Below, piece by piece: positions 530 to 35,786 of a stretch of 64,000 bases of DNA. Source of the stretch: Candidatus Acidiferrales bacterium (GTDB lineage: Bacteria; Bacteroidota; Ignavibacteria; Kryptoniales; JAKASW01); assembly GCA_035515795.1 (NCBI GenBank), contig DATJAY010000005.1, positions 1 through 64,000 of the forward strand. The letters run 5' to 3'. Made by a program: the position numbers and the translations under genes. The stretch's first letter is position 1; each line of letters begins with the position of its first letter. Below the pieces are notes generated by a model that saw nothing but the letters and a program-made list of their open reading frames with translations, had not been told where the DNA came from and made no database searches.

Positions 530-862
530 ATGAATAACAATTCCCTCCAATTATGCGGCAATCCTGCCGACCTATTTAATCCACAGGAAACATATATGAC
601 ATACGAAACAAACGATTTATATCTCAGCGGATATCTGATAGCATCTGGATTTCAGTTGCAGTCCCACACAAATGTGAGTGGACAAACCATTTTCCGCTTT
701 AATCAGACAGACGAGCTTAAGAAACTCGTAGAAAAATATTATAACCTGGACGGATTAGTTAATCCCCAGCGTTTGGCGAGTGCACTAAAATCACTCAAGA
801 ACATCATATACCAGAAGGAAAATAACAATAAGTATCATGGTACAACAAGAATGTATAACTAA
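530..862 (+). CDS. Small DUF5659-like protein of a mobile element
   Basis: A 110-residue protein. The ATG at 530 is chosen over the upstream TTG at 512 because GGAGG at 517-521 sits 8 bases before it. The central part (TNDLYLSGYLIASGF... then FRFNQTDELKKLVEKYYN... then LKSLKNIIY) matches, from memory, the pattern of DUF5659 proteins: 'DLYLAAYL' followed by a hydrophobic strand, an 'EL..LV..Y' helix and a terminal 'LK.LIY' helix. Such proteins commonly sit beside primase/VapE genes in phage satellites. The 3' end overlaps the start of the primase gene by 26 bases, so the two are probably translationally coupled. Molecular function is unknown. Confidence 0.6.
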   Translation: MNNNSLQLCGNPADLFNPQETYMTYETNDLYLSGYLIASGFQLQSHTNVSGQTIFRFNQTDELKKLVEKYYNLDGLVNPQRLASALKSLKNIIYQKENNNKYHGTTRMYN

Positions 863-3014
863 TACAGAAAGGCAAGATGAAGATTTTGCTACAAAAAGAT
901 CAGTATATACAATCACTGATATAAGAAAAGCGGCATTTGAATATTACGCATCGGGCTTACGTGTGTTCCCGGTAAAGCAGGACAAGACACCTTGTGGTGA
1001 ATGGGGCTGGCTTAGAGATCGTTCAGCTACCGAAGAACAAATGAACTGTTGGTTTCCCGAAGGAACAACAAACCTTATAGCAATAGTCTGTGGTGTACCG
1101 GATGCGGGGAATGTCGAGGTCATTGACATTGATGAGAAATATAATGTTGAACCCGAAAAGCTGATTCACAAATTAAAATACCTTATAAACAATTTTGACG
1201 GCGGCCTCGTTGATACATTGGTCGCCGAGACCAGCATGAACGGCGGCTGGCACCTCATTTATAGTCTGAGTGGCACAGTAGATGGCAATCAAAAGCTGGC
1301 GATGAGGCACACAAACGAAAAAGATCTGATAGACGACCCGAATGCAAAATGCAGGACTTTGATCGAGACGCGCGGCAGATCAGGGTACATCATTGTAGCG
1401 CCTTCAAGAGGATATACGGCAAGGTCCGGAAGAATTACTAATCTGCCGCTCATTAGCGAAGAAGACCGAAAAATACTCTTAGATTGTGCCCGATCTCTAA
1501 ACTCATATATGCCTGAAGATGAGTCAGTTAATGATCCCACACGTTTAACAACCTCGCCAAAGGACGGCATCCTATTGCCGGGAACCGACTTCAACATGCG
1601 AGGCGATTATGCAGCATACCTCAGGAAAGCCGGCTGGAAAATCTCCTATGTTTCGAACGGCGTTCAATATTGGACCAGGCCTGGCAAGAAGAACGGTATG
1701 AGCGCAACATTCAATTATATGCCGAACACATTTTACGTGTTCTCAACAAATGCCGCCCCGTTCGAAGAGAATAAAAGCTACTCACCGTTTGCTATCTATA
1801 CCTATCTTCAACACAAAAAAGATTTCACGAAGGCATCTGATGCGCTGAAGAGAATGGGTTACGGCACAACCAGGAGTTTGGAATTTGCAGAGCGGGTATT
1901 GAATCACAGATACGAGTTCAAATACAACGTGATAAGAGGGATCACCGAATTCAAGGAGCGCAGCGGTGGCGAGAGCTTTACAGCTTTAACAGATAAGAAG
2001 GCAAACTCAATATATCGGGAACTAGTTCATATAGGGTGTACGCTTCGCAAAGAGGCATTGGAACAACTCCTTGTTAGCGACTTCGTTCCTGATTATGATC
2101 CGTTCGTAGAATATTTCGCGACATTAAAGGAATGGGACGGAAAGACCGATTTTATCAGACTATTGGCCGAGACGATAACCCTAAAGGATCCAAAACGATT
2201 CCACCGATGGCAGACGTGCCTGACCAAATGGCTGGTTGCAACCGTGGCATGCGCTACACACCAAAAGACGAATCAAACGGTTCTGACCCTTCTCGGCAAG
2301 CAGGGGACATACAAGACAACATGGCTGATGTCATTACTGCCAACCAAATATAAGATCCAGAACCAATACCGGATTTCCCGGGCCATAAATCCAGATTCGA
2401 AAGACTCGCAGATAGCTCTCGCAGAGAATTTTCTCATCAACATCGACGAATTAGATTCGATGAGTAAATATGATGTTGGAAGTTTAAAGTCATTCATTAC
2501 TCAAGAGTCGGTGGACGTCAGGCGTCCTTATGGCCGGCGTCAGGAAAACCTTCCGCGACGGGCGTCACTTGTTGCAAGCGTGAACAAGGACACCTTTCTA
2601 GTTGATGAGACGGGTAATCGAAGGTTCCTAATCTTTGAGGTGGAAAGCATCAACTGGAACCACAACATTGACATGGATAACGTTTATGCACAGGCTCAAG
2701 CACTATTTAAGCAGCCCGGCTCCTTCAGATACTGGTTCGGTGACGAGGAGATCGAAGAAATAAACAAGATTAACAGCGCCTATCGAGTTAAGACAACGGA
2801 GCAAACATACATCGAGACACTTTACGAACCGGTATTGGAAAAAGATGTCACAGACCGGACCACTTGGGTCAATTCAGCCGAAGTAGCGACCGAGTTGAAC
2901 AATCTCTTTCACATTCCTCGAAACACGGTGTACGTTGGGAAAGCTTTGATGGCAATGGGCGGCTTTCACAAGAGGACCAGCAGTGGCGAGACGTACGCTG
3001 TCAAACGGATATAA
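837..3014 (+). CDS. Bifunctional primase-polymerase / VapE-type helicase
   Basis: A 725-residue replication protein. Residues about 30-200 look like a prim-pol (AEP) domain: a YYASGLRVFPV start, the metal-binding pair in VEVIDID, GGWHLIYS, and RGRSGYIIVAPS. Residues about 420-640 form a VirE/VapE P-loop domain: entry motif FVEYFATLKEWDGK, Walker A in LLGKQGTYKTTW, Walker B in FLINIDELD, sensor ASVN, and the arginine motif GNRRFLIFEV. This pairing is typical of the initiator of phage satellites and small integrative elements, where it primes and unwinds the element's own origin. The repeat region directly downstream fits that role. No capsid, terminase or integrase gene lies beside it in the window, so the element is either small, decayed, or continues to the left. 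Confidence 0.85.
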   Translation: MVQQECITNTERQDEDFATKRSVYTITDIRKAAFEYYASGLRVFPVKQDKTPCGEWGWLRDRSATEEQMNCWFPEGTTNLIAIVCGVPDAGNVEVIDIDEKYNVEPEKLIHKLKYLINNFDGGLVDTLVAETSMNGGWHLIYSLSGTVDGNQKLAMRHTNEKDLIDDPNAKCRTLIETRGRSGYIIVAPSRGYTARSGRITNLPLISEEDRKILLDCARSLNSYMPEDESVNDPTRLTTSPKDGILLPGTDFNMRGDYAAYLRKAGWKISYVSNGVQYWTRPGKKNGMSATFNYMPNTFYVFSTNAAPFEENKSYSPFAIYTYLQHKKDFTKASDALKRMGYGTTRSLEFAERVLNHRYEFKYNVIRGITEFKERSGGESFTALTDKKANSIYRELVHIGCTLRKEALEQLLVSDFVPDYDPFVEYFATLKEWDGKTDFIRLLAETITLKDPKRFHRWQTCLTKWLVATVACATHQKTNQTVLTLLGKQGTYKTTWLMSLLPTKYKIQNQYRISRAINPDSKDSQIALAENFLINIDELDSMSKYDVGSLKSFITQESVDVRRPYGRRQENLPRRASLVASVNKDTFLVDETGNRRFLIFEVESINWNHNIDMDNVYAQAQALFKQPGSFRYWFGDEEIEEINKINSAYRVKTTEQTYIETLYEPVLEKDVTDRTTWVNSAEVATELNNLFHIPRNTVYVGKALMAMGGFHKRTSSGETYAVKRI

Positions 3015-20824: not shown

Positions 20825-22144
20825 ATGGGTTCAAAAGGAAATGTGAAGGCAAAAAAAAGGGCTTACATATCAAGGAATTGGAAGGTTGCAACGCCGATAC
20901 CCGTGGTCTCTCTCTTCTGGCGCATTACGCACGAATTCAAGACGTCATTTGGACGTGTTTTAGATATGGGAGCTGGGGATTGTAGATTCGCTCGAGGCGT
21001 TAAATTTCAGAGTTACGTGGGCGTGGAGATCGATCAGCGCATCTCTGCTGACATCCAATCAGCTAAGGTGTCCTACTTACATGGCTGCGTATTTGAACAT
21101 AGTGGAAATGATTACGATGCTTGCATTGGTAATCCACCATATCTTAGACACAATGAAATCGAAAATACTTGGCGACAGAAGATGATTTGGAGGTTCGATA
21201 ACACACTTGGAATGACGCTCGATAGAAGGTCGAATCTTTATCTCTATTTTTTTCTGCTTGGACTTCAAAAGACAAAAATGAATGGGATAGTCTCTGTTTT
21301 GGTACCTTACGAATGGGCATTTATTCCGTCTGCAAAGTCTTTGAGAGACTACATTGAGATGAACGGATGGAGCGTTTTTGTCTATCGCCTCAACTACTCA
21401 GTCTTCAAAGGTGTTCAGACGACTGCATCTGTTAGTATCGTTGATAAATCTGATAATCGTGGCACTTGGGAATATTTTGACATAGACAAAGGGGGAATAA
21501 TAACACAAGTCCCATCTTTTACGGAAAGTGGTCAATCACCTCTAGAACATGGAACAAGAGGCAGGGTGTGGGCTATGCGAGGATTGAGTCCAGGCACAAA
21601 TAAGGTGTTTACCCTTACCGAGGGTGAAAGAGTTGAGGCCAATCTAACAAAGAAGGATGTACGAGCTTGTATTATTTCTCTCAAAGAGCTTCCATCGAAA
21701 TTAACGGTTCTCGATAACGCGAACTTCAAGAAATACTTTGTTTCTAAAAACAAAAAATGTTGGTTAATACGAACGGACAAGAAGCCCACGAGTGCACTTA
21801 AGAAATATCTTCGAAAAATTCCTGAGGAGAAAAGGAGCACTTGGACTTGTCAAAATCAGACACCATGGTATAGGTACAAACCCCATCGTGCTCCAAAATT
21901 ACTCTTCGGCCCTGCTTTCAAAAAAGCAAATCCTTTGATTTTATTTAACAAGATTAAAGCGATTGCGGTCGGTTCGGTGATCGGGATTCACACTCAATCA
22001 ATAGAAAATATGAACGCGCTACACAAGAAGCTTCGTAAATACGATTTCAGCTCAAGATTGGTCCCTCGGGACAGGGGACTGAAGGTGATAGCTGTCAAGC
22101 AGGTGAACACTGTTCTAAATTCGTTGGTTAAAAACCCAGAATGA
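20825..22144 (+). CDS. N6-adenine DNA methyltransferase (Eco57I/gamma-type)
   Basis: A 439-residue protein. AdoMet motif I is VLDMGAGDCRFA (residues 45-56), the acidic strand is YVGVEID (64-70), and the catalytic motif IV is NPPY at 103-106, which identifies an N6-adenine methylase. The middle part (VSVLVPYEWAFIPSAKSLRDYI) is the usual strand after motif IV in Eco57I-like enzymes, and the C-terminal 200 residues probably include target recognition. No good ribosome binding site precedes the ATG at 20825. The stop overlaps the next gene by four bases (ATGA at 22141), so the pair is translationally coupled. No nuclease gene is adjacent. Confidence 0.85.
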   Translation: MGSKGNVKAKKRAYISRNWKVATPIPVVSLFWRITHEFKTSFGRVLDMGAGDCRFARGVKFQSYVGVEIDQRISADIQSAKVSYLHGCVFEHSGNDYDACIGNPPYLRHNEIENTWRQKMIWRFDNTLGMTLDRRSNLYLYFFLLGLQKTKMNGIVSVLVPYEWAFIPSAKSLRDYIEMNGWSVFVYRLNYSVFKGVQTTASVSIVDKSDNRGTWEYFDIDKGGIITQVPSFTESGQSPLEHGTRGRVWAMRGLSPGTNKVFTLTEGERVEANLTKKDVRACIISLKELPSKLTVLDNANFKKYFVSKNKKCWLIRTDKKPTSALKKYLRKIPEEKRSTWTCQNQTPWYRYKPHRAPKLLFGPAFKKANPLILFNKIKAIAVGSVIGIHTQSIENMNALHKKLRKYDFSSRLVPRDRGLKVIAVKQVNTVLNSLVKNPE

Positions 22145-22794
22145 AGGATAATACAGCTACCCTTCTTGATGAAGGTAAAATCCATTTCTCTACCGAAGGG
22201 AGGTTACTCCAAGAACTCGGTGAGCGGCTTGTCGCATCGGCCGATTTGGCAATAATTGAGCTCATCAAGAACGCATACGATGCCGATTCTCCGATCTGTA
22301 AAGTATACTACTCAGGAGAAGATAGCCTTGCCGTTGAAGACCATGGCCACGGGATGACGATTGATGAGTTCAAAACAAAATGGATGACTATTGCGACTTC
22401 AAGCAAGCAGGAAGATCGGATTTCTCGCAAATACAAATGGAAGTTAACTGGAGCAAAAGGAATAGGCAGGTTCGCAGTACGATATATGGGACGATTCTTA
22501 AAGTTGTATTCGGTGGCATTTGATGAACAGCGAAAGGCGATGACGAGCCTCGAGGCAAATTTTGATTGGGTGAATGTTGATAATATCTCGACATTGGAGG
22601 CTTTTGAAATACCATATAAACTCTTTAGAGCCGCGGATGATGAGCAACCTGGAACAAAGCTTACAATAAGCCACCTGCGGAACGAAATCATCAATAAGAG
22701 TAAGATCAAATCAGAAGTTTTAAAGATCGTATCCCCATTATCAGGCCTAGAGCGAGGAAAGTTTGAGACGTCGATGAGATTAACGTGGTATTGA
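22141..22794 (+). CDS. GHKL (HSP90-like) ATPase domain protein, probably truncated
   Basis: A 217-residue protein with all ATP-binding boxes of the GHKL fold: N-box AIIELIKNAYDAD, G1 VEDHGHGM and G2 GAKGIGRFAVRYMG. It starts inside the stop codon of the methylase gene. Family relatives (MORC/HSP90-like ATPases paired with methylases) are usually several hundred residues longer. Here the chain ends abruptly after SPLSGLERGKFE, and its last 89 bases are overlapped by the tail of a minus-strand gene. I infer a deletion or insertion junction near 22770-22794 that removed the C-terminal part. Without that part the protein could bind ATP but would lack its effector domain. Confidence 0.8.
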   Translation: MKDNTATLLDEGKIHFSTEGRLLQELGERLVASADLAIIELIKNAYDADSPICKVYYSGEDSLAVEDHGHGMTIDEFKTKWMTIATSSKQEDRISRKYKWKLTGAKGIGRFAVRYMGRFLKLYSVAFDEQRKAMTSLEANFDWVNVDNISTLEAFEIPYKLFRAADDEQPGTKLTISHLRNEIINKSKIKSEVLKIVSPLSGLERGKFETSMRLTWY

Positions 22795-23508: not shown

Positions 23509-23640
23509 TCACTCCAAATTGTTTAAGTCATCACCCGCCGGGTTTGTCCGGGATTTGTTTGCAGGCTGACTAACCAAATCATAACCACAGCCGATCCCTG
23601 CATCTACCAGGCGCGTAAACACTACCCCGTGTTCCTGCAT
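23509..23640 (-). CDS. 43-residue small ORF directly behind the recombinase
   Basis: It starts at ATG 23640, 14 bases after the recombinase stop codon, in the same direction. The product contains RLVDAGIGCGYDLVSQP and ends in an acidic tail (GDDLNNLE). Its CGYDLV(S) core and the DNA beneath it (14 identical bases, 23578-23591) recur in the non-coding stretch at 35182-35195, where the antisense reads CCGYDMVTHP. It may be a real small partner of the recombinase or a decayed tail of a longer gene. I cannot decide from sequence alone. Confidence 0.35.
   Translation of the reverse strand: MQEHGVVFTRLVDAGIGCGYDLVSQPANKSRTNPAGDDLNNLE
23578..23591. repeat. 14-bp direct repeat, left copy (candidate attachment site)
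   Basis: ATCATAACCACAGC here is identical to 35182-35195, in the same orientation, 11.6 kb apart. The pair brackets the recombinase gene and the whole ABC/VWA operon. The left copy lies just downstream of the recombinase, a common place for an att core. A 14-base match of moderate complexity in 64 kb could also be chance or a decayed duplicate. Confidence 0.4.
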
Positions 23641-23654
23641 TTGCCTCTGAATTT

Positions 23655-24671
23655 CTAGTCAGTGGGCTCCATCAATTTCTCCACTGCATTTGACAGCGTA
23701 TCGTTTGTGAGGTGCGCATAAATTTGCGTGACGGATGGGCTTGAATGACCTAACAACCGCTGCACTTCATAAAGTGAAACTCCCTTCATTACGAGCCAGC
23801 TTGCAAACGAGTGACGCAGGCTATGAAAACGCAGTGCCGGGTTGAGTCGGGCTGCTCTTACACATTTCTTGAAGTGCTTCGAAAGCCTCTCCACCTTCAT
23901 TTGCTTTTTATCCAGCGTAAACACCAGACTATTTGGGTTGCTGTCCAGTCGATGCTGCAACACCTTTAGAGCTATGCCATTTAATGGAACTGCTCGGACC
24001 TTGCTCGACTTTGCCATGTGGGTTTGGTTATCTAGGAGAATTATCCGTTCGTAAATTCTTACTTGTCTCCATGTCAGATTAACTAGCTCTCCTGATCTAC
24101 AACCGGTGTTTGCAGCGAAGAGCGTTATGTCTGATAGATCTTTATCATTCTTCATCATTGAAAGTAGTGCTTGAAATTCTTCTTGGGTAAAAAACAGTGG
24201 ATATTTCACTGGCAGGCTGGGTTTCTTAATTCTCTTGCAGGGGTTCTCCTGCAGGTAGTTATGTCTTATTCCCCAATTGAAGAATGCGGAAATGCTGGCG
24301 TAATCCTTTCTGGAAGCATAGCTTGAGACTTGGGCTGCTCTGAACGACAAGAATGATTCAATCGCAGCTGTGTCCAGTGAATTGAGTAGTGGGTTGCCGA
24401 AGTATTTCCTCATTTCATTGAATGTTGTCACATAGACTTTTGTCGTGGATATTCGGTGAACCATTTTAGAATACTTCAGGAACTCTGATGAAAAAGCATT
24501 GAGATTAATTGTGTTTGTTCTCTTGGGTTTCGCTACATCAATCTTCCTGTTAAGCTCTATCAGAAAGGAGAGAGCTTCGGATTTCTGCCTAGCTCTAGTT
24601 GACTTTTTTCTTCTCTTGCCATTCTCATTCCAAATTACATAATAGATACCGCGTATCTTCGCTAGGAACAT
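23655..24671 (-). CDS. Phage-type tyrosine recombinase (integrase)
   Basis: A 338-residue protein with a strong ribosome binding site (AAGGAGGTAGT) before ATG 24671. An N-terminal strand pair (IRGIYYVIWNENGKRRKKST, Arm-type) is followed by a SAM-like core-binding domain (about 55-145) and the catalytic domain. Catalytic residues are all present: Arg192 (TGCRSGEL), His283 and Arg286 (HSLRHSFAS), His309 (LLGHSS) and Tyr318 (TQIYAHL). The extra helical insertion that marks integron integrases (IntI) between the second and third boxes is absent, so this enzyme is not expected to move the attC cassettes to the left. It more likely mobilises, or once mobilised, the adjacent operon. Confidence 0.9.
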   Translation of the reverse strand: MFLAKIRGIYYVIWNENGKRRKKSTRARQKSEALSFLIELNRKIDVAKPKRTNTINLNAFSSEFLKYSKMVHRISTTKVYVTTFNEMRKYFGNPLLNSLDTAAIESFLSFRAAQVSSYASRKDYASISAFFNWGIRHNYLQENPCKRIKKPSLPVKYPLFFTQEEFQALLSMMKNDKDLSDITLFAANTGCRSGELVNLTWRQVRIYERIILLDNQTHMAKSSKVRAVPLNGIALKVLQHRLDSNPNSLVFTLDKKQMKVERLSKHFKKCVRAARLNPALRFHSLRHSFASWLVMKGVSLYEVQRLLGHSSPSVTQIYAHLTNDTLSNAVEKLMEPTD

Positions 24672-25038
24672 ACTACCTCCTTATTACCAGATATTTTAAT
24701 GACCAACACAGTTCTTGACAAATCGCCAGTGGATACTGTATCCGTCGATTAGTCTATCTTGCACTTTCAGCATAGCATGGAAGCATTTTCTCTTCAGTGG
24801 ATTCTGGATGAGTGATCAAATCATCACGTCAGCGGGTAATGATCTGTATTATTGCTTGCGAGCGCGGTTTAATGAAGAGTCTTCATTGCTGAATAAGGTC
24901 GCTAATGCTTGACAGGATTATCAACTAATCATCGACTTACAATTGGGGGTAGGCTATTGCACCCGAATTTATGAAATTACACGATTCTGGCGAGATATCG
25001 TTCCTGCTGTCCTATTGTCTATTGGACATCATGACTTA
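24672..25038. other. Non-coding stretch with left 94-bp repeat
   Basis: No gene is called. The stretch separates the recombinase from the end of the ABC operon; both are on the minus strand. It contains the left copy of an imperfect 94-bp direct repeat (24745-24838). Short open frames here lack ribosome binding sites. Confidence 0.55.
24745..24838. repeat. Imperfect 94-bp direct repeat, left copy
   Basis: By eye about 75 of 94 bases match 35107-35200, including TTGCACTT, ACATGGAAG/GCATGGAAG, TTTTCTCTTCA and GGATGAGTGA. Read on the minus strand the two copies encode similar peptides (RLI..., KVQ/EVQ, KRK.FH) with a stop codon in this copy. This suggests that both derive from one ancestral coding sequence. 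The pair flanks the ABC/VWA operon. Confidence 0.6.
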
Positions 25039-26769
25039 TCAATACACTCCATCAATTCTTCCTTGTATGAGATCACTCGGTGTATATCGCAGAAACTTCT
25101 TCACGGCGAGCCAGATACTCATCATTCCAAACAATATAGTTGGCGCCAAAAGAAATAAGGTCGACACGCTGAGAATATCAATGAAACGCTGATTCGAATT
25201 AGAAGCGATGTGGGAGAATCTTGTAAGCAGTATATATGGCAATGGTGATAGCTGTACCAGAAGGGAAAAAGAAAAGGCAAGGAAGCAGAGCATTCCTAGG
25301 AAAACCAAACCTTGAAGCAAAAATAATACGTAGAATGTTCGTGGCCTGGTACCAAATGCCTTCAACATGCCGATACTATATCGGTTTCTGGTGAGATAAG
25401 AACGGAAGATATGATATGCAACAAGACTTGAACAAAAAACCGAAATGATAATAATGAAAACCAGAAAAACCTCGGTCAACTTTTGCACAAAGTTATAGTT
25501 GGAAAGAGCGTTAACACTCTCTGTCTGTATTTGAGTTCCGAATTTCTCCCCTAATAGCTCGTTGAGAGCTTGCCAGCGAGAGAGATCGGAGACGTAAACG
25601 GCTATGTGATCATATGCAACATTGTTCTCTTTTTCAGGCAAGTTAATTCGAGTGGGACTGTACCTCCTGAGCATGCCCCCTTTGAACGTTAGCAGAGCTT
25701 CGTATATTTGCTGCAGTACTGCATTGTTGATTGTCAAATTCGCGTCCATAGAGATAAGACTAATCTTCCATCGGAATTCTGAGCAGCCGGTCGGAAGTTG
25801 GTCGGCAGGAGGCTCCCCCAACCAAGACACCGCCGGATTAAGTCTAACGTCAACTTTCTGAGAAGAATAATCTTCGATTAATGAATTAACTGAATCGAGC
25901 CCTGCAGAATCAACTGAACAACCGATAATTAAAGAGCCTTGACCAGTTCGATTCGGACCTTTCGGGATGGTAATGTACCTAAGGATCTGGTCCAACTCGT
26001 TTTTCCCTCGCTTCCCCAACACTCCTGCCCCCGCCTGGAGAGATGCCTTTCCAATATCTTTCTCTAACAATGAGTTCAGATGATTTGTAATCAGGAAGTC
26101 AGACTGATAGGGTAGCTTCCTTGCTATTCCTCGGATCGGCAATACATAGGGCGCTCCTTTACCAACAGATTTTAAGATGTATCTTGCTTCAGGATGTATG
26201 CCCGCTTGAGCTTGAATACCTAAGGCATGGGCCATTTCTTCACTGATAATGATACCAATGTCGAACGAATCAATAAACTTCCGACCAAACAATCCATTGC
26301 CGTCCGAAAATACTCCATCCACAATCTTATCGGTCCCCTCAACTGATCTACCCTTAAACGAAGAATAACCTGACACTCCATTCTTTCCATATGCTGAGAA
26401 GCTTCCGAATTGAAAAGCAAATCCTCCGATTGTCTCAACTGAATACTGTTTTCTTGATTCAGTGCTTTCGAAATACTTCAGTATCTCTGCCGCACGCTCG
26501 GTCCCCGTGGTACCAACACCTATCAAGTCAATAGGCAACCAGTGAACGAAAGGATCAGCGAATTTCAGATCCAAGATACTCCTAGCACCAACTGAGAATC
26601 CGACGGATAGCATCGCAAGAGAAAGGATCAATCCAAATGTCGTGAAATCGAGCTTCATTCGCGAAAAATCAAACGAAAAAATCCTTCGAGTGACGCGACC
26701 AAACCCAAACAGCGATACTGGATTGATCGTCGACTTCTTACTTTCACTGTTTGTAAGCTTGCCACTCAC
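25039..26769 (-). CDS. FtsX/MacB-like ABC transporter permease
   Basis: A 576-residue membrane protein starting at GTG 26769, 11 bases after the ATPase gene. One TM helix lies near residues 45-65. A large extracytoplasmic domain follows (about 70-430), and three TM helices lie near 430-460, 480-510 and 535-560 with the FtsX-type loop LKAFGTRPRTFYVLFLLQG between the second and third helices. This is the type VII ABC topology (FtsX, LolC/E, MacB, TagS), in which ATP hydrolysis drives periplasmic work rather than solute uptake. The large periplasmic domain does not show motifs I know. Together with the upstream ATPase it forms a complete transporter. Confidence 0.8.
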   Translation of the reverse strand: MSGKLTNSESKKSTINPVSLFGFGRVTRRIFSFDFSRMKLDFTTFGLILSLAMLSVGFSVGARSILDLKFADPFVHWLPIDLIGVGTTGTERAAEILKYFESTESRKQYSVETIGGFAFQFGSFSAYGKNGVSGYSSFKGRSVEGTDKIVDGVFSDGNGLFGRKFIDSFDIGIIISEEMAHALGIQAQAGIHPEARYILKSVGKGAPYVLPIRGIARKLPYQSDFLITNHLNSLLEKDIGKASLQAGAGVLGKRGKNELDQILRYITIPKGPNRTGQGSLIIGCSVDSAGLDSVNSLIEDYSSQKVDVRLNPAVSWLGEPPADQLPTGCSEFRWKISLISMDANLTINNAVLQQIYEALLTFKGGMLRRYSPTRINLPEKENNVAYDHIAVYVSDLSRWQALNELLGEKFGTQIQTESVNALSNYNFVQKLTEVFLVFIIIISVFCSSLVAYHIFRSYLTRNRYSIGMLKAFGTRPRTFYVLFLLQGLVFLGMLCFLAFSFSLLVQLSPLPYILLTRFSHIASNSNQRFIDILSVSTLFLLAPTILFGMMSIWLAVKKFLRYTPSDLIQGRIDGVY

Positions 26770-26780
26770 CTTCTTTGCCT

Positions 26781-27632
26781 CTAAGAAAAAACTTTCTTCA
26801 GACGCTCAACAAAGGTTTCTTCAGAAAAGGTGCGATTCTCATAGACACAATGCCAAGCATTCTCAATAGTTCTACAAAAGAAGTTTTCTTCAGATATCAT
26901 ATGCGTTTCACGGTCGCTGATGAGTATAACATTATGAGCGTGTCTGACTGCCAGATTAATATTATGAGTAATAACAATTGCCGATTTCTTCGCTTCAGAG
27001 TTGACAATATAGTCTCGTATTGCAGCCATGACCGCCGCAGCATCGTTATCACCAAGATTGCCCGTCGGTTCGTCACAGAATAGGACATCATTTTGAGTGA
27101 GAACTGCACGCACAAGTGCTGTCCGCTGCTTTTCGCCGCCTGATAATTTGTTTACTTGTTTTGATTTGAACTTTTCTATTTGGAGATCCTTGTATAGAGA
27201 TTCAGACGGATCTTGATCAATATCGATTGGTTGGGACTTGATAAGCCTTGGGATTCGTACATTTTCATCTAAGCTAAGTCCCGGGAAGAAATGACTTTCC
27301 TGAAAAACATAAGAGAAATGATCTCGTCTCATTTCAGCAAGTCGTTTTTCGTCTGTCCGGATACTCGAATATAGTATGGGTGCGCTCCCATTCTTGTGGA
27401 AATATTTGATTTCTCCTTTGAATTCACGATAGTTGTTGAGCAGAGAAAGCGTATCTAGAAAAGTCGTTTTGCCTGCCCCAGATTCCCCCAACACGCAGGT
27501 CATCCGCCCCCTATCAACAAGCAATCGTGGAACACGGAGGACAGTCTCATCGTCATATTTTATTTCTAAATCTTCAATTTCAAAAAGGATATCGCTATGG
27601 TCCGATTCTCCTTCATTCACGGAATTAGCCAC
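26781..27632 (-). CDS. ABC transporter ATPase, LolD/FtsE/TagT-type
   Basis: A 283-residue ATP-binding subunit. Walker A is GESGAGKTT (49-57), the Q-loop is FSYVFQES, the signature is LSGGEKQRTA (162-171), Walker B is VLFCDEPTGNL (182-192), and the switch His is in IVITHN. The start GTG 27632 lies within the end of the VWA gene (16-base overlap), so translation is coupled. The C-terminal extension of about 60 residues beyond the switch region (SDRETHMISEENFFC...) is slightly long for this class. It pairs with the downstream FtsX-like permease. Confidence 0.9.
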   Translation of the reverse strand: MANSVNEGESDHSDILFEIEDLEIKYDDETVLRVPRLLVDRGRMTCVLGESGAGKTTFLDTLSLLNNYREFKGEIKYFHKNGSAPILYSSIRTDEKRLAEMRRDHFSYVFQESHFFPGLSLDENVRIPRLIKSQPIDIDQDPSESLYKDLQIEKFKSKQVNKLSGGEKQRTALVRAVLTQNDVLFCDEPTGNLGDNDAAAVMAAIRDYIVNSEAKKSAIVITHNINLAVRHAHNVILISDRETHMISEENFFCRTIENAWHCVYENRTFSEETFVERLKKVFS

Positions 27633-30118
27633 TCGTCAACCCAGAAATATTTTGTTTCATTTGAAATAAACACAAAGCTACCAGTCTCAGGGCCATTGAA
27701 CAAATCGTAGAGAAGCTTTCTTTTTAATTCTAAGTACCTGATGAATTCTGGCAACTGCAGTTTCACTTCATCAGAACAAGCCGCTACGTCCTCCAAGGGC
27801 ACGTCTCGCATTAGTTGGCTCTTATAAGGCAACCCGGTTACGTATTGAAACACTTCAGCCACGGGCATCTTCCGCAGTTTTTCTATTTCTGATTCGCCCG
27901 AAAATCTTCTGCACAACTCCAAGAATACGTTATATAAACCCATGCACACTTGCTGCTCGGTGCCAGGCTGAATGTTTGGATTGTCTGCGCTCAGGGGCGT
28001 GACATTTATTATTTGGTTTAACGGGTCGAGAAGTCCGCGGTCCAGCTCTGTTGCGGAAAGGAATAGCTCAAATCTATAAAGCGGCTCGGAGTAGCCAATC
28101 ACTGAATCTGCTGTAAACCCGTCGGTAAACACTTGAAACGCCGTATCGATAACATTAGCGGCAGCAAATGTAAGTATGTCTTTATCCTCTTTTCGAATTT
28201 TGTTAAGCAGCCCCAGATTAGGAATGCTCGTCTTCGTTGAATCAAGCAAGATTCCCCAACTGTTAAATGACTCGATTTTTTCAGCCTCATTGATCAATTC
28301 CGTGTTCAGACTATCCACCGAGTCGATAGATGCAACAATTCCGTGCACAAGGTTGTCGATGACTTGTGCCGAATCCCCGCTATTTTCTGCAGGATAAATC
28401 CGACCATAGAATGGAGTATTCTTAGTCATGAAAAATCCGTTTTCCTCACTAATACCAAATGGACCTAACCTTGGGAAATATCGCCTGATAGAATTGGACA
28501 GTGTTCTTCCGGAGCGATCCAAAATCTCTTTTACGTCATCGACAAAACGTCCATAGGCCGGGTTACTTTCCACTTGGCCTACTTGAAAAGCCACAAAGTG
28601 AGGCTGATCGTACCTTACCATGAATTGAACAAGCTCGTTCATGTCACTTGTCCGCTCTTCGCAGGATTTATTCCCGACACCTCCGATCAGCACCACCAGA
28701 CTTGTCTCATCAAAGCTACGAGTTTTCACGTTGAAGTTTTCACCTTCGTTGCGATAGGCCTCCGATAGTCCTCTGAATAGACACTTGTCATCTAGAATGG
28801 CATCGTTTGGATTTTGGGGAGTGCATTTTTGGGGATCCAGAAAAACGTCGACCATATGGGGAATCTGATCCTCTCCCACCAATGGGAGGAGTTCGGTTTG
28901 TGTAAAACCGGATGAATAGTTGCGATAAATTACGCTGCCAAATCTAATAGTGTTCCTAGAATGATGACTTCTTATCACACCTATAGCTGTCTTAATGGCG
29001 GTTCTAGCCGCATCAAAATAGGGACGCATACTGGCCGAGCCATCAATGACGAATATAACGTTTATGTGTCGAGTCCTTTCTATGATCTCGTTCAATATCC
29101 CACGAACGTTTGCTTCTCGATTTGGGTCAAGGATATTCATGCCCAGTGTAAGAGGCTGAATACAACCTGTGTGCATGACAGGTGGATTGTAAGAAAGCAC
29201 TGGAAAGCGGCGGCGCTCTCCCGGCCATGGCGCGTCTCCCCATTTATCATCGTTCCAGATGATTGATGAATCAGGGCAGCCTTGGTTCTTGGAATAGGAC
29301 AATGCTGAGACAGAGTCCGAAAAAATTGTGGCCTTAATGTTATTAATCCTCTCGTGAGCTGCAGTGCTTATATAGTTTGGTTCTATCACAATCCGATTCG
29401 ACCAAATGAGAACTCTACTGGTTGGAGCCCACCCGACAAATTGGTTTCTATCTTCAGCATCATTGCCGAACATCGTAACGTTTGGGTTACCGCTCTTGCC
29501 TAATAATACCCATCCTCCAGTTTCGTCAAACTTGAACACATGATAGAACTCAAAAGCGTTCGCGCTATATCCCGTGTAGGAACTCCCCTCAGTGCCCGGA
29601 TTTCTCCTAAACTGCAAGACCTTTGGATTTGTCCCGAGATTTGTGACCATTCCTTTTGCCACAACGCTGATAATCATGCCCTTTGTGGGAATTCCAGAAT
29701 TCTTATCTTGAAGGCACTCATTTGGCCACAAGAGAATATTTCTTTTGGGGATCCATCCGAGTACATCCGAGTCCGTCATGTTGTCTCCTTTTGTCTGCCA
29801 GACATCCAACTTGACTACCCGAATGAATTCCTGCTTTTCGGCGACCACTACCAACGGTGTAAGGAACCCTATCGTGCCAACAAACGATGACTCTTCCGGA
29901 ATTGTATATATACTATCATCGTCTCGGTCAGAGAACACTATCCACGTGATGTCATTCATTCGGGAATGTATCGGTGCACCAAGCTCCCTCTCATAATGAG
30001 ACAGGAGATCCTTTGTTGGTGCCATGAGGCAGTCTGATCTGCCAAGGGCCCTTACAGTTTGACTGGAGGCCATCTGCACAGACAAGAAAAACAAAGACAA
30101 TGCTTTCAGCCAATTCAT
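27617..30118 (-). CDS. Exported VWA-domain protein with GW..LLW modules (TssR/PpkA-like)
   Basis: An 833-residue protein with GGAGGGAT before ATG 30118 and a signal peptide ending near QMASSQ. Two copies of an SH3-like motif, GWIPKRNILLW (121-131) and GWAPTSRVLIW (229-239), precede a VWA domain beginning VIFVIDGSASMRPYFDAAR, with the metal-site DxSxS at residues 359-363. The remaining 300 residues are unassigned. The combination 'GW....LLW' plus 'VID.S.SM.PY...' recalls, from memory, the TssR protein of Bacteroidota type VI secretion and the VWA part of PpkA. No tube, sheath or baseplate gene is in the window, so this is homology by pattern only. Confidence 0.75.
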   Translation of the reverse strand: MNWLKALSLFFLSVQMASSQTVRALGRSDCLMAPTKDLLSHYERELGAPIHSRMNDITWIVFSDRDDDSIYTIPEESSFVGTIGFLTPLVVVAEKQEFIRVVKLDVWQTKGDNMTDSDVLGWIPKRNILLWPNECLQDKNSGIPTKGMIISVVAKGMVTNLGTNPKVLQFRRNPGTEGSSYTGYSANAFEFYHVFKFDETGGWVLLGKSGNPNVTMFGNDAEDRNQFVGWAPTSRVLIWSNRIVIEPNYISTAAHERINNIKATIFSDSVSALSYSKNQGCPDSSIIWNDDKWGDAPWPGERRRFPVLSYNPPVMHTGCIQPLTLGMNILDPNREANVRGILNEIIERTRHINVIFVIDGSASMRPYFDAARTAIKTAIGVIRSHHSRNTIRFGSVIYRNYSSGFTQTELLPLVGEDQIPHMVDVFLDPQKCTPQNPNDAILDDKCLFRGLSEAYRNEGENFNVKTRSFDETSLVVLIGGVGNKSCEERTSDMNELVQFMVRYDQPHFVAFQVGQVESNPAYGRFVDDVKEILDRSGRTLSNSIRRYFPRLGPFGISEENGFFMTKNTPFYGRIYPAENSGDSAQVIDNLVHGIVASIDSVDSLNTELINEAEKIESFNSWGILLDSTKTSIPNLGLLNKIRKEDKDILTFAAANVIDTAFQVFTDGFTADSVIGYSEPLYRFELFLSATELDRGLLDPLNQIINVTPLSADNPNIQPGTEQQVCMGLYNVFLELCRRFSGESEIEKLRKMPVAEVFQYVTGLPYKSQLMRDVPLEDVAACSDEVKLQLPEFIRYLELKRKLLYDLFNGPETGSFVFISNETKYFWVDEWLIP

Positions 30119-30136
30119 ATCAATATCCCTCCACTT

Positions 30137-31465
30137 CTATGGTATCACGAGGGTCTGTACTCTGATTCCTGCGATGTGTTTGAGTGTGCCAGGGGAGCTG
30201 CTGTCTTCTCTGGCCAGGATCAATGTGTTGCTCGAATTAAATCCTTCGTTAATTAACAGTTCCGCAAACTTGTCACTATTACTTCTGATGTTGTCAATGC
30301 TCGACTGGGACAAAAACAAAAACAATTTCTCATGGACCCTGTCACTATTGGGAAAGTCGCTTCGGAAATCTTGTATCGCCATCAACAAATGATTGAATGT
30401 GTTCGGCGCTAACGGCTCATAAACCGAATATGCATTCATTAGTCTGGCACTATCAGATAGAAACCCATCACAATAATACTCACCGCCGCCACTTACGAAT
30501 AAACGTCCCTCGGTTAGCCTCTTGTTTGATTTCACATCCCTAATTAAGGAATCCAATGCCGGTTTGATTTCTTCCCACGGTATGAATCCTCTTGATTTGT
30601 CGAGGAAGAAAATAGGGACGCTTGGGAGCGCTTCGAGTTTCACTGATTCGCGCTCTTTAGGTTGATATACAAGCTGCTTCCAGCCATTAGAGTTTGCGGG
30701 TGCATATCCTTGAGGCATAATTATTGAAACCGAGGAAGTAGATGCCGTTGAGAACAATGGAATGGCTAGTGTGATAGAAATAGAAGTTAGATGCGTCCCC
30801 TGTAAATAGTCGTGCTCTACGTCGACAGGGCTGGAAGTATGGGAGAATGAGCTAGGAGAAATTACTCCTACTTCTATGCCAACTTTATATGAACTATTAA
30901 GCAAGTATTCCCATCCTATAGATATGCCCAATCCGTTACGATGATGAGAAACCTTAGTCACAGGATCGGTTGACTCAAGTTCCACTGCCGATGGCTGCAA
31001 ATAAAATTGATGTTCTTTCATGTTGATTTCGGCGAGTGGTAGTCGAATGTACAACGAAAAGGAATAATAAGGAGTGCGGGCGAGAATACTTGAGTTAAGT
31101 TCCTTTGATAAATCAGATGCACGGACTTCGTTCTGATACGAATAGCTGCCTAATCCAATTTGGCCGCCAAGTCGGAAATCCCCTTCAACTAACTTGAACC
31201 CATCCAGCCTCCCGCCAGAAAATAGTCTCACACAATTCTTCAGAGAGAAGCTATATCCCATTTGAACGAGATACCCGTTTTCCGCTCCCCAAAATGCGCC
31301 GCTCGATACGTTAGCCTCGCCATCCTTTGACACCACTGACCAGACATCTTGCTTTGATCTGAGTGAATCCACCACTGGCTGTGCCATAACAGCGCCATAC
31401 GAAACGGCAAAGCAAAACAGCAATCTCGACAAAACGGATAAGTAGCTTTCCTCAAAGACTACCAC
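30137..31465 (-). CDS. Exported protein with degenerate VWA-like C-terminal domain
   Basis: A 442-residue protein from GTG 31465, overlapping the lipoprotein gene by 7 bases. The N-terminus has a signal-like segment (SVLSRLLFCFAVSYGAVMAQ). Residues about 45-245 are amphipathic strands with Gly/Ser/Tyr repeats typical of an outer-membrane barrel (YLVQMGYSFSLKN, FRLGGQIGLGSYSY, LGISIGWEYLL, SISITLAIPLFS). Residues about 285-430 have a VWA-like layout: VPIFFLDKSRGF (a DxSxG variant of the metal site), RLFVSGGGEYYCDG, then KLFLFLSQSS. It may be a barrel that holds a soluble sensor domain. I recognise no named family. Confidence 0.6.
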   Translation of the reverse strand: MVVFEESYLSVLSRLLFCFAVSYGAVMAQPVVDSLRSKQDVWSVVSKDGEANVSSGAFWGAENGYLVQMGYSFSLKNCVRLFSGGRLDGFKLVEGDFRLGGQIGLGSYSYQNEVRASDLSKELNSSILARTPYYSFSLYIRLPLAEINMKEHQFYLQPSAVELESTDPVTKVSHHRNGLGISIGWEYLLNSSYKVGIEVGVISPSSFSHTSSPVDVEHDYLQGTHLTSISITLAIPLFSTASTSSVSIIMPQGYAPANSNGWKQLVYQPKERESVKLEALPSVPIFFLDKSRGFIPWEEIKPALDSLIRDVKSNKRLTEGRLFVSGGGEYYCDGFLSDSARLMNAYSVYEPLAPNTFNHLLMAIQDFRSDFPNSDRVHEKLFLFLSQSSIDNIRSNSDKFAELLINEGFNSSNTLILAREDSSSPGTLKHIAGIRVQTLVIP

Positions 31466-32460
31466 TGTACTTTCCCACTCAAGTCAAACTCAATCATAGG
31501 ATTTCTAGGATCGTTTGTTCTAAATCGTATCTTTGTTGATAATTGCGTCGTTGTTGATTTTTCCCCTGGATTTGCAAACCTGGGTAGAAAGCGAAAATAA
31601 AGAGTATCTCGCTTTCCTCCAGGGATTCGAAAGTAATTGCTTGGTTGGATATCGAAACAGTCCGCATTAGGGCCCGTCTTACCATCCAAGGATATCTTGC
31701 CAATTGCTCCACCTTCGTTATACACTTCGACTCTTTCTACAGGGATCTCGCCGGGCGTATAAACTACGGTACCCCCTCCGAAGGCAATTACTTGCCTATC
31801 AGTTCGCAACCGCGCATTTCGTTGGTCGAGAGAAGGTTTTGAAGGTGTTGAGATATTGGGATGAGAAGACTTATCTATCGGCGGCTCAACAAACAAAGTG
31901 ATAGAAGAATAATCCTGATTGCAGATTAGAGCAGCTATCCATGCCCGCACACTGTCAACATCCGTAAAGATTTTCATCCCGATATTCTTAAGCGATTCAT
32001 TACTCGTTAGTATCGCCATGGAACTCGTATCAACTGCACTTAGATATTCATCATAGGCCCTCTTAATGTCAATATTCTTATCGTTCTCCTTTGAGAAGGA
32101 CTCGCCTATCTCAACATTTGCAAGGTGCCTTTTCACTTTATTTGTAAGAAAATTTATATTTGCCTTGTTACCTGCTGCGCCTTCCTCTATCACTGTCTCA
32201 AGTGACAGGTCCGAAGATCTATCGTAACCCAACCGATGCAACCTTGGTATAGGCAAGATATTATACTGTTCACAACCTATTGGAAAACACAACTGCCTTA
32301 TCTTATCCGGGATAATGTCCGTCTTCTCGCTTCCCAATCTGTCAGCTACTACAATTACAAGATTAAGTTCCTTCGGCGGTTTATTAAGACCGCTACATCC
32401 CATAAACATCAACATCATGGAGATGCAAAATAGAATTGAAACGTTAGTTTCCTTCTTCAT
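31459..32460 (-). CDS. Lipoprotein with Ig-like (ASPM/SPD-2/Hydin-type) C-terminal domain
   Basis: A 333-residue protein whose signal peptide ends in the lipobox MFMGC. Residues about 30-200 begin with a strand ELNLVIVVADRLGSEKTD that could be a reduced VWA/Rossmann fold. Residues about 235-333 resemble the choice-of-anchor/ASPM-SPD-2-Hydin beta-sandwich: VERVEVYNEGG, FRIPGGKRDTLYFRFLP, TKIRFRTNDPRNPMIEFDLSGKV. The protein should sit in the outer membrane facing the periplasm. It is the second gene of the operon and overlaps the next gene by 7 bases. Confidence 0.7.
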   Translation of the reverse strand: MKKETNVSILFCISMMLMFMGCSGLNKPPKELNLVIVVADRLGSEKTDIIPDKIRQLCFPIGCEQYNILPIPRLHRLGYDRSSDLSLETVIEEGAAGNKANINFLTNKVKRHLANVEIGESFSKENDKNIDIKRAYDEYLSAVDTSSMAILTSNESLKNIGMKIFTDVDSVRAWIAALICNQDYSSITLFVEPPIDKSSHPNISTPSKPSLDQRNARLRTDRQVIAFGGGTVVYTPGEIPVERVEVYNEGGAIGKISLDGKTGPNADCFDIQPSNYFRIPGGKRDTLYFRFLPRFANPGEKSTTTQLSTKIRFRTNDPRNPMIEFDLSGKVQW

Positions 32461-32472
32461 TTCTTGGACTCC

Positions 32473-33363
32473 TCAAATGGTTTTCTTCGCAGTTGGTTCG
32501 ACATCAAGGATGGCCATCTGATGCTCAACACCCTTTACTGCCAAGTCCCTCTTCTGTTCTCTGGTATCCTGACGAGAGATGAATTCAGAGAGTTCTTTAT
32601 CAGTCAATACACCTAATGTCTCAAGCCAATATCTTTTCTCAGTCCCTCCCCCCCCTGCTCGTTCTTTCGTTTCCATTACTATCTTATGATTCCCCACCTC
32701 AAGAGCTTTGAATTCTCTATCTCCAAGATCAATCCTTAATGGATTACTAGAATCATATGCGAACTCTTTTGCTTCTGATTCAATATATGCGGTATGTTCT
32801 TTACTTATCTGCAGTTCGAATATAATAGTGAATATTGCATAGCCAGTGCATGAACAATGGAGCATAGCACCTATCATGTAACAAGTAAATATTAGTCCCG
32901 ATGTTGTGTTTGGAATTCCGTAAACTGAATAAAACCAGTAGAATTTGAAGAAAGCGGAACACACAATAAATAGATATAAAAACCGTTGCAACATCTTGTA
33001 GCGGCTCAGTCTTCTTGCTGTTTTCTTCGCGGTCACGTCTTCTTCATACACCAGCTTGTTTTTGCACTCACAGATTTTCTGCTGCCAAGGTAGATGGCTC
33101 AAAACCGCCAGCACAAAATCAACCACAATAGAACCAATAATCGCGGTTATGTTTACACCTTGCCAATAAGAATAGTAAGTTGCTATAGATTCGAGGATGA
33201 AAATACCTATCACGCCAAGTATCCGCCAAATGAATGTGGTAGTTGCGAAAAGGCCTGGCAACGGCACAGCCGCAAAAGTTCGTACTGTCTTGTGAGTGTA
33301 CATCCACGCGCGCTTGGTACTCTGCGACGGCCAAAAGTTTTCATCTGGATTGAATTCAAACAT
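32473..33363 (-). CDS. Four-TM membrane protein, first gene of the operon
   Basis: A 296-residue protein. Hydrophobic helices are at about 43-63, 70-92, 127-148 and 152-180. Residues 185-296 are hydrophilic and include IDLGDREFKALEVGNHKIVMETKERAGGGG and an ISRQDTREQKRD helix, probably cytoplasmic. I recognise no family. The gene is 12 bases upstream of the lipoprotein gene and is the first of six closely spaced or overlapping minus-strand genes. That makes it part of the same transcription unit, perhaps its inner-membrane anchor or sensor. Confidence 0.65.
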   Translation of the reverse strand: MFEFNPDENFWPSQSTKRAWMYTHKTVRTFAAVPLPGLFATTTFIWRILGVIGIFILESIATYYSYWQGVNITAIIGSIVVDFVLAVLSHLPWQQKICECKNKLVYEEDVTAKKTARRLSRYKMLQRFLYLFIVCSAFFKFYWFYSVYGIPNTTSGLIFTCYMIGAMLHCSCTGYAIFTIIFELQISKEHTAYIESEAKEFAYDSSNPLRIDLGDREFKALEVGNHKIVMETKERAGGGGTEKRYWLETLGVLTDKELSEFISRQDTREQKRDLAVKGVEHQMAILDVEPTAKKTI

Positions 33364-34067
33364 TTCTGGACCCTTTCAACTTATTGTCTTCAGTTTCAAG
33401 AGATAATACAACGAGGAAGCTTATGAGAAGCCTCACTGTTTGATTAATTGTACACATTGCACTATGCCGCGCGCTCTCCCTCAGGGCAGTGCAATTGTTT
33501 TGAAATGTGTAACTAATTTATCAATGAAAACCAGAAACAAAGAGATGATACATTGATAATCATCCCGTACAGCACACCTAGAACATAGTACAAAATGCAT
33601 TTACCACAATCAAGTTTCTTTTCCACGGCCTTTCATTTTGTCGAAGTCGCAGCGGTCTTGACGCCTCTGATTCCTTGACTCGTGAGTTTATCTGAATAGA
33701 CGCCGCAGGTTATCAATTCCATCTATTTTTCTTGAAGAGTGTTCAAACTGTATCACATTTAGAATCAGCAAGCACTGAGGTGAAATGAAGATATTGGTCC
33801 AATTGATTCATTCAACGATTCCAGATCTCCTGATCTTCAATTGAACGAACCCTCGGGTGAGCCTTTGATTGAATTCCAAAGCAGACATCTCAAAAACTAA
33901 GTTCGTCTGTCTTTCACCAGATTGTACGCCCGATAAGTACATTGTATTGCCACCATGGTCATTTTGAAACTGAACCGCGGCGGATGGAAGTAATTACAGT
34001 TTCGTCGTGGTCTCCTCTATTGTTAGGGTGATTGCTCACACTTATCGTGGCATATCATCTGAATACG
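33364..34067. other. Non-coding stretch upstream of the ABC/VWA operon
   Basis: About 700 bases without a credible gene. It should contain the operon promoter. ATTGCACT (33456-33463) and AGTGCAAT (33488-33495) form an 8-bp inverted repeat around a GC-rich centre, with outer ACACATT and AATGTGT partly extending it. The central ATGCCGCGCGC resembles the ATGCCGCGC block of the attC-like sites, but no GTTRRRY box is present. From 33600 to 34060 I see only unstructured sequence. Confidence 0.5.
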
Positions 34068-34706
34068 CTAACTCGAATCTGAACTATGCTTCCTGACATA
34101 ACGGCCCTTCTTGTTCCCAAGTCTGACGAGAATCAGGGATACAAGGATAATGGACATGCCGAGTTGCACGTTCACGGCAATTAATTGGGTTCCAACTAGA
34201 GCTCCAATTATGAAAGCATTCGTCCCAAAATCCTCTGGCCATCGACCAGTCTTATTAACCATGCCTGCTATCGCGCGAATAAGGGAAGCGACTAGAATCA
34301 CGTCTATGAAAACAAATATGAGGAGAATGCGAAAATCCTCTCCGATCCTGAAACTCCAAATCAATCCCACTGTAAAGAGTATTGACCCGATAAGCCAGAA
34401 GTTCTTTGCAAATTCGAGTACGAACTCCCTTAGTGGTTGTCTACCTGTGGCGATTAAGCTAGTAATGAATGTCGCAATGCCCCAAAATACCAACGCGACC
34501 GCTGTCGGAGGATTGACTTGTTGTGGTTTTGACTTGAGAACACGGTCGATTTGTGCCTGAATTTCGTTGAACAGTTTTGGAATATCTAATCCCGTCAGGA
34601 AGACGAGCAAGGTCACAACTGTTGCGATGCTCCCCAACACTCCTTCGATTTTTCTTAGCCGTATTCTATCCATATATGATAGTCTGCTTGTTACCTGCAA
34701 TAGCAT
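34068..34706 (-). CDS. Polytopic membrane protein of unknown function
   Basis: A 212-residue protein from ATG 34706 (GGAG just upstream); a longer form from TTG 34739 and a shorter one from ATG 34673 are possible. Five or so hydrophobic helices: SIATVVTLLVFLTGL, VALVFWGIATFITSLIA, NFWLIGSILFTVGLIW, ILLIFVFIDVILVASLIRAIAG, and a final pair TNAFIIGALVGTQLIAV / GMSIILVSLILVRLG. The tail is basic and Ser-rich. No motif that I recognise. It is 700 bases upstream of the ABC/VWA operon and inside the same repeat-bounded segment, so it may be further cargo. Confidence 0.6.
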   Translation of the reverse strand: MLLQVTSRLSYMDRIRLRKIEGVLGSIATVVTLLVFLTGLDIPKLFNEIQAQIDRVLKSKPQQVNPPTAVALVFWGIATFITSLIATGRQPLREFVLEFAKNFWLIGSILFTVGLIWSFRIGEDFRILLIFVFIDVILVASLIRAIAGMVNKTGRWPEDFGTNAFIIGALVGTQLIAVNVQLGMSIILVSLILVRLGNKKGRYVRKHSSDSS

Positions 34707-34739
34707 CAGCTCCAGAATAAAGCGCGGATATATGATCAA

Positions 34740-35503
34740 CTACCTTGTGAATTCTCAGCGCCTCCGAGTCTAGAGTAATTTTAATAGGTCATTTATTCAG
34801 ATGCAAGCTTTTCGAGAGATGGCTCAAACGGCAATTCGAGAATCTTGAGATATCTCCACAGAATGATTTTCCTATTGCTCGGCTTAACTTGCACTTGCTG
34901 ATTTGCTGTCCATATACTTTCTGGTTAGTGCGCCTTAGGAAATTCATCTAAATCATTGTTACTCATTTAAGTAGGAAAAATAATAAAACAGACCCCGCTT
35001 CCCATATTTGCTTAGTAGTCTTCGCTTGTTTTTCGAAAGCTCGACAACCGAGGCACATAATGGAAAATCTTTGTGTTGTTGACAGCTCGGCATGACCCCG
35101 TCCCTGTTGATCAGTCTTCCTTGCACTTCCAGTATAACATGGAAGTTTTTTCTCTTCATAGGATTGCGGATGAGTGACCATATCATAACCACAGCAGGTA
35201 CCAGTCCGACCACAGAAACACAAAAAGGGGATGGAAGGTACTAGACGCGAGGGCGTCGGTGCTGTCCAGATCGGGAGATTTTTCGGAGGAGCGGGAGGAG
35301 GAGAAGTGATTATGCTATTATATATATGATTGTGGATAAACCTCAATTTACCTGCGGTATTGTCCACAACTGTTTACTTGAAAGTTGTGACCTCGTTGGA
35401 TAAATTGAATCGTGCGACAGTAACATCTAACAGGACATCTAACAGGTGGTCGAAAGTTGGAATGACCAGTCGCGAGATTCTTTAAAAGTAACCCGATTTG
35501 AAT
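34740..35503. other. Non-coding stretch left of the tRNA with right repeat copies
   Basis: No gene is called. The stretch holds the right copy of the 94-bp repeat (35107-35200) and, within it, the right copy of the 14-bp repeat (35182-35195). Overlapping minus-strand open frames of 84 and 134 codons cross the repeats; they look like decayed coding sequence rather than genes. The tRNA-Asp promoter must lie near 35440-35500. Confidence 0.55.
35107..35200. repeat. Imperfect 94-bp direct repeat, right copy
   Basis: Partner of 24745-24838 (about 80 percent identity by eye). The end of this copy contains ATCATAACCACAGC (35182-35195), identical to 23578-23591 next to the recombinase. It lies about 300 bases upstream of tRNA-Asp. 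It could mark the right end of an integrated element. Confidence 0.6.
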
Positions 35504-35578
35504 GGGGTTGTAGCTCAGTTTGGTTAGAGCGCCTGCCTGTCACGCAGGAGGTCGCGAGTTCGAGCCTCGTCAACCCCG
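35504..35578 (+). tRNA. tRNA-Asp (GTC)
   Basis: The acceptor arm GGGGTTG (35504-35510) pairs with CAACCCC (35571-35577). The D-arm is GCTCAGTTTGGTTAGAGC, and the anticodon stem CCTGC/GCAGG encloses CTGTCAC with anticodon GTC at 35539-35541. The T-arm is TCGCGAGTTCGAGCCTCG-like, and G35578 is the discriminator base, as usual for tRNA-Asp. A genomic CCA is not encoded. The tRNA stands at the border between the accessory region on its left and core-like genes on its right, but its 3' end faces away from the accessory region, so it is not an obvious integration target. Confidence 0.97.
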
Positions 35579-35786
35579 CAGTTCCCTTCCGCCTTGAAAC
35601 CTTCTTTCGATAGTGTGAATTTCATCATACAATGAAATTACATTACAATAATGTGAAAACCAGGTTGTTTTTTCTGAAATTTTCACTCATGGAAACTGAG
35701 AGGGCAAGCAATTCCGCTGCATCCATCGTCGGTTATAGGGGCTTTTCCTATGATTCAACCGGGCGATATTTGCGTTGAGAAAATCA

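Follow-up and report, generated by a model that had tools for sequence, protein, structure and literature searches.

The 64,000-nucleotide stretch of DNA analysed here, called the window throughout, comprises positions 1 to 64,000 of contig DATJAY010000005.1 from Candidatus Acidiferrales bacterium (assembly GCA_035515795.1; Bacteroidota, Ignavibacteria, Kryptoniales). Between 25039 and 33363 it carries six intact open reading frames (ORFs), all on the minus strand, in which adjacent ORFs either overlap (by 7 and 16 nucleotides, nt) or lie 11-18 nt apart; this is the packing expected of a single transcription unit, and scans for promoters and terminators gave results at the level of chance. The first gene encodes a 296-amino acid (aa) integral membrane protein with two to four transmembrane (TM) segments and a soluble C-terminal tail (32473-33363), followed by genes for a 333-aa predicted lipoprotein with the lipobox FMGC (31459-32460), a 442-aa exported protein (30137-31465), an 833-aa periplasmic protein with a VWA domain (27617-30118), and an ATP-binding cassette (ABC) transporter composed of a 283-aa ATPase of the LolD/FtsE/MacB type (26781-27632) and a 576-aa permease of the FtsX family (25039-26769). 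A preliminary description of this DNA had proposed six tightly spaced minus-strand genes, a lipoprotein among them, and in both respects it was correct.

The 833-aa protein matches the N-barrel, TssR_VWA and TssR_C domains of TssR at 53.0, 50.5 and 35.6 bits (Pfam cut-off 25.7), and judged by these matches, the alignment, the tree and its metal site it is a full-length TssR homologue. TssR is one of the five membrane-complex proteins of T6SSiii, the type VI secretion system (T6SS) of the Bacteroidota, in which it is a lipoprotein (PMC10781749). The 2024 paper on that complex detected no homologues outside T6SS loci, and a pre-T6SS system was searched for and none was found (PMC10781749). In the window protein we find a signal peptide without a lipobox, GW...LLW stretches at residues 121-131 and 229-239, and a VWA domain that keeps DGSAS and has Gly in place of the distal metal Asp, leaving the metal site half kept. 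The periplasmic VWA protein with duplicated GW..LLW modules that had been noted earlier, and its resemblance to TssR, are both borne out.

The ATPase has intact catalytic motifs (GESGAGKT, LSGGEKQR, VLFCDEP, THN). It is closest to the bacteriocin-export and LolD models of NCBIfam and reaches no model cut-off there, scoring 117.8 bits for the LolD equivalog (cut-off 307.75) and 92 of 966 bits for MacB. In the permease, a single TM segment at the N terminus and three at the C terminus flank a large periplasmic domain. Its match to PF02687 scores 25.4 bits when the protein is searched, just short of the cut-off of 25.5 bits, and exceeds that cut-off when the genome is searched (30.1 bits); a profile of related permeases recognizes it with an E-value of 9e-29. 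The AlphaFold2 model of the permease (pLDDT, the predicted local distance difference test, 70) matches LolE with a Z-score of 16.3 over 384 residues, and also MacB, FtsX and YtrF; the Z-scores to LolE, MacB and FtsX are 12-16, with LolE closest. By this model the fold is that of LolE/MacB/FtsX, the type VII kind of ABC transporter, in agreement with the LolD/FtsX-type transporter of the preliminary description. Type VII ABC transporters typically work mechanically in the periplasm rather than carry substrates across the membrane (PMC12646458).

Relatives of this arrangement were sought in 299 genomes of one other order (with a three-sequence TssR profile), in 395 genomes sampled evenly across the phylum, and in contigs from named genomes, scanned with a five-row TssR alignment; the loci were annotated with profiles built in this analysis. 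An ABC-linked TssR is present in 17 of the 299 genomes and in three of the 395, namely the window genome and two others. The scan of named genomes yielded 58 further loci of two classes. In the first (Pedobacter, Mucilaginibacter, Chitinophaga and similar) tssR is part of a T6SSiii locus, with no ABC transporter beside it in any case. Together with the loci of the first set, the second class makes up 44 distinct ABC-linked loci besides that of the window, from Bacteroidales, Prolixibacteraceae, Saprospiraceae, Muribaculaceae, Paludibacter and others, and in all 44 the order is tssR, then ATPase, then permease, on the same strand (three of them are cut off before the permease by a contig edge or break, and one shows no ATPase gene in the interval from tssR to the permease). 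The ATPase and permease are fused into one gene in 11 of the 44 loci, which is strong evidence that both work as a pair. A second, partial tssR-like gene is located between tssR and the ATPase gene in a few loci.

Thus, this trio, conserved across scattered loci of the Bacteroidota, is a conserved and undescribed module: the literature that we searched contains no paper linking TssR with an ABC transporter, as the preliminary description, which knew of no described system, had supposed. One TssR-ABC operon, on a contig labelled Caldiserica (L119), is very close in the tree to a Bacteroidales locus (L101); the contig is probably mis-binned, and hence we claim no spread outside the Bacteroidota. 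Two sets of candidate relatives were rejected: in G153/L038 an unrelated ORF matched by chance over 51 residues, and 11 weak matches at the level of the class covered only a general VWA stretch.

It is the TssR-ATPase-permease trio that is conserved, the six-gene set being the window genome's version of it. Accordingly, the conservation of gene order that had been proposed as a test holds for the core, in which the ABC genes come after tssR, and fails for the six genes as a set. Many related loci encode a VWA-like partner upstream of the trio, and the C-terminal ~110 residues of the 442-aa protein match the VWA-like/Rossmann family whose genes immediately precede tssR in these loci (E 4e-4, against 0.29 for a reversed control). 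The barrel that had been suggested for this protein, alongside a degenerate VWA metal site, is unconfirmed for its N-terminal part (Pfam E 0.03, below the cut-off); the protein matches no Pfam or NCBIfam family, and its predicted structure (pLDDT 32) was unusable. The 296-aa protein and the lipoprotein have no counterpart in any related locus, no detected homologue and no Pfam or NCBIfam family, and look specific to the window genome. Of the four TM segments described earlier for the 296-aa protein, two are clear hydrophobic segments on a simple scale and two are weaker ones, placed by eye.

The homology to TssR raises the question of whether the module is an orphan or auxiliary part of T6SSiii, a piece of the membrane complex that lost its contractile machine or serves one elsewhere. 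T6SSiii was detected with profiles for TssC (sheath) and TssK (baseplate) built in this analysis, with G350 as the positive control; for loci known from contigs only, absence of T6SS genes applies to the stretch read. The Pfam VipB model was rejected as a test for T6SSiii because it missed this control. In the window genome, which is 100% complete, neither T6SSiii TssC nor TssK was found, and both profiles recovered G350, the positive control, as well as six of the other carriers. The genome is also negative for Pfam VipB (T6SSi; the E. coli control was positive), contractile systems of other kinds not having been searched for. The window ORFs gave no match to twelve T6SSiii components in phmmer, and TssN, TssO, TssP and TssQ are missing from the operon by the same searches and by hhalign, which was null for the 296-aa protein against TssN, for the lipoprotein against TssP, TssO and TssQ, and also for the 442-aa protein. 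The absence of secretion-machine genes that had been observed in the operon can therefore be extended, for T6SS, to the whole genome.

Among the 18 carrier genomes, the window genome included, six have both TssC and TssK and 12 have neither; seven of these 12 (the window genome and six others) are at least 98% complete. In two of the six genomes with a T6SS (G532, G573) the module is located between tssP and clpV in the T6SS locus, in three (G681, G753, G755) sheath and baseplate genes are on the module's contig, and in one (G478) they are on another contig. In the three genomes with these genes on the same contig (loci L062, L063 and L064) the T6SS is divergent, and the ABC-linked TssR is the sole TssR found at E 1e-10. 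A further five loci encode a TssP homologue and, within the stretch read, no other T6SS genes. The stand-alone status suggested earlier applies to the window genome but not to every carrier, since some have the module within a T6SS locus or close to one. This proximity, the TssR homology and the loci with TssP favor a T6SSiii part. However, the module recurs without T6SS genes in the six other near-complete genomes, the window genome lacks the machine and its operon the other membrane-complex components, and ordinary T6SSiii TssRs are on a separate branch and never have an adjoining ABC transporter, so that we regard an orphan or auxiliary T6SSiii part as quite unlikely.

That branch was obtained in a tree of 82 TssR sequences, made with a quick method, unrooted and with several long branches including that of the window protein; the 32 T6SSiii TssRs without an ABC transporter form one side of it (Shimodaira-Hasegawa-like approximate likelihood ratio test, SH-aLRT, 97). 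The VWA metal site, scored as D.[ST].S plus the distal Asp, is complete in 23 of the 40 ABC-linked TssRs for which no T6SS gene was seen close by and in all five of uncertain context; it is complete in none of the 32 T6SSiii TssRs and in none of the five from ABC loci adjoining a T6SS. Because canonical VWA domains carry the metal site, these sequences are more simply read as having lost it on the T6SS side, a polarity argument rather than proof. The presence of the trio in a genome without a detectable injector suggests that the envelope part of the injector belongs to a surface-sensing or envelope machine that is older than the injector or independent of it. We tentatively propose, at a little less than even odds, that TssR-ABC is an independent trans-envelope machine with a metal-binding VWA domain and an ABC drive, which would predate the T6SSiii complex and be ancestral to it; T6SSiii may then have co-opted TssR (and TssP) and lost the ABC transporter and the metal site.

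As for its function, the closest analogy is with TagQRST-PpkA of the Pseudomonas aeruginosa H1-T6SS, in which an ABC transporter, an outer-membrane lipoprotein and a kinase sense outer-membrane damage (PMC11881912) and PpkA has a VWA sensor domain (PMC3224232). Similar to that pathway, the window operon encodes an ABC ATPase and permease, a lipoprotein and a periplasmic VWA protein, and some related loci encode Ser/Thr kinases, PP2C or FHA proteins. In contrast to it, the VWA domain is in TssR and not in a kinase, the genome has no T6SS, and Pfam assigns neither a kinase nor an FGE-sulfatase domain to any of the six proteins. The resemblance is one of working parts, not an established homology of the ABC transporter to TagST. 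Compared with the T6SSiii TssNQOPR complex (PMC10781749), the module shares the N-barrel, VWA and C-terminal domains of TssR and, in several other ABC-linked loci, a TssP homologue; it differs in the ABC genes adjoining tssR, and in the window also in the missing lipobox, the DGSAS motif that is kept, and the lack of TssN/O/P/Q and of a contractile machine.

With a probability of roughly 0.55, we propose that the core serves as a mechanotransmission relay, in which a type VII ABC transporter acts on a TssR-outer-membrane assembly in analogy to TagQRST-PpkA. The preliminary description had likewise put forward mechanotransmission or an envelope-stress response, perhaps protective, and these stand as candidate functions. 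As to protein-protein contacts, direction of the signal, mechanism and biological role, we infer the following. The ABC motor in the inner membrane would act by mechanotransmission on the periplasmic TssR/VWA protein, which may be tied to the outer membrane through partners encoded upstream, here the lipoprotein and the 442-aa protein with its VWA-like C-terminal domain. The module would use ATP hydrolysis to assemble or gate a trans-envelope complex, or would signal contact with or damage to the outer membrane, as TagQRST-PpkA does. Some Bacteroidota have it together with a T6SS and others, including the window genome, without one. Several points weigh against such a relay. The outer-membrane side is poorly defined, given that the 296-aa protein and the lipoprotein are without counterparts; the six genes include neither a TagR-like gene nor a kinase, and in most related loci no kinase is seen within about 10 kb. 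The window TssR itself is a long branch, with a best identity of 25% and an incomplete metal site, and lipoprotein extraction or small-molecule export is also possible for a type VII ABC transporter.

That last point leads to an exporter or lipoprotein-handling transporter like MacAB or LolCDE, with the TssR-like protein as a periplasmic adaptor. Permease fold and ATPase type are shared with LolCDE, MacB, FtsEX and YbbAP, the closest models being those for bacteriocin export and LolD and the closest fold LolE; the operon includes a lipoprotein gene, and many related loci encode large surface proteins with SprB repeats that are sorted by the type IX secretion system. Yet the ATPase stays far below the equivalog cut-offs for LolD (118 of 308 bits), FtsE and MacB, and the single permease gene accompanies tssR instead of forming a LolC/LolE pair. 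Among the six proteins there is no HlyD/MacA domain and no TolC-like channel, and we know of no exporter of the MacAB/LolCDE class that uses a VWA protein. We therefore consider an exporter unlikely, if deserving of some weight.

A further comparison is with Tubulin_2 (FtsZl1)-VWA-kinase operons, which were described in PMC2875224, in passages that name no TssR-ABC trio. VWA proteins and kinases recur in both settings, and in three of the 44 loci (L105:16290-18779, L118:14358-16850 and L123) genes for Tubulin_2 of the FtsZl1 type and for trypsin-like proteins are located downstream of the trio. None of the six window proteins has a Tubulin_2 domain; the search for it covered these six and not the rest of the genome.

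The window operon is probably the cargo of an 11.6-kb integrative element (23564-35195). At one end of it is a tyrosine integrase gene (23655-24671, minus strand; Phage_integrase E 4e-35, NCBIfam), and it is delimited by imperfect att-like direct repeats on the plus strand, the left one of 28 nt (23564-23591) and the right one (35168-35195) identical to it at 24 of 28 nt, which are the two copies in the 4-Mb genome. Also inside is an ORF for a 223-aa membrane protein (34068-34739, minus strand), ~700 nt upstream of the operon. A third, weaker copy of the repeat is present at 24806-24840, and a tRNA-Asp gene (35504-35579) is just outside the element. The G+C content is mostly 40-46% over about 14-36 kb, against 47-50% on both sides, and neither 12 congeners nor 340 genomes sampled from the class have the system. 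Together, the element, the dip in G+C and this absence make acquisition by transfer likely. An empty insertion site was not found in the congeners because the flanking genes are differently arranged there. Plasmid and phage collections gave no match to TssR, and plasmids none to the permease.

Elsewhere in the window, an N6A-type DNA methyltransferase gene precedes a HATPase ORF of 217 aa whose match to the 659-aa BbrUII/HgiDII restriction enzyme model is confined to the initial part of that model (20825-22794); the two are probably a truncated restriction-modification pair. The left end (837-3014) encodes a Primase-polymerase/VapE-like protein typical of mobile elements. The probable element with its integrase, the adjoining restriction-modification genes and the absence from relatives might indicate cargo for defense or against competitors, directed at envelope attack or phage. 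PADLOC, however, returned only ATPase-type matches and no specific defense system, and the genes that come after the module in other lineages are apparently ordinary chromosomal ones, which makes a defense role improbable.

As a mechanotransmission relay, the TssR-ABC module suggests that the Bacteroidota have a counterpart to damage sensing by TagQRST-PpkA, and that TssR has a working state that is energised and possibly depends on metal. Living without a T6SS, it is a concrete candidate for the ancestral system that was sought in vain for T6SSiii (PMC10781749), and, if the ancestral reading is true, it would be the pre-T6SS source that the authors of that work did not find.
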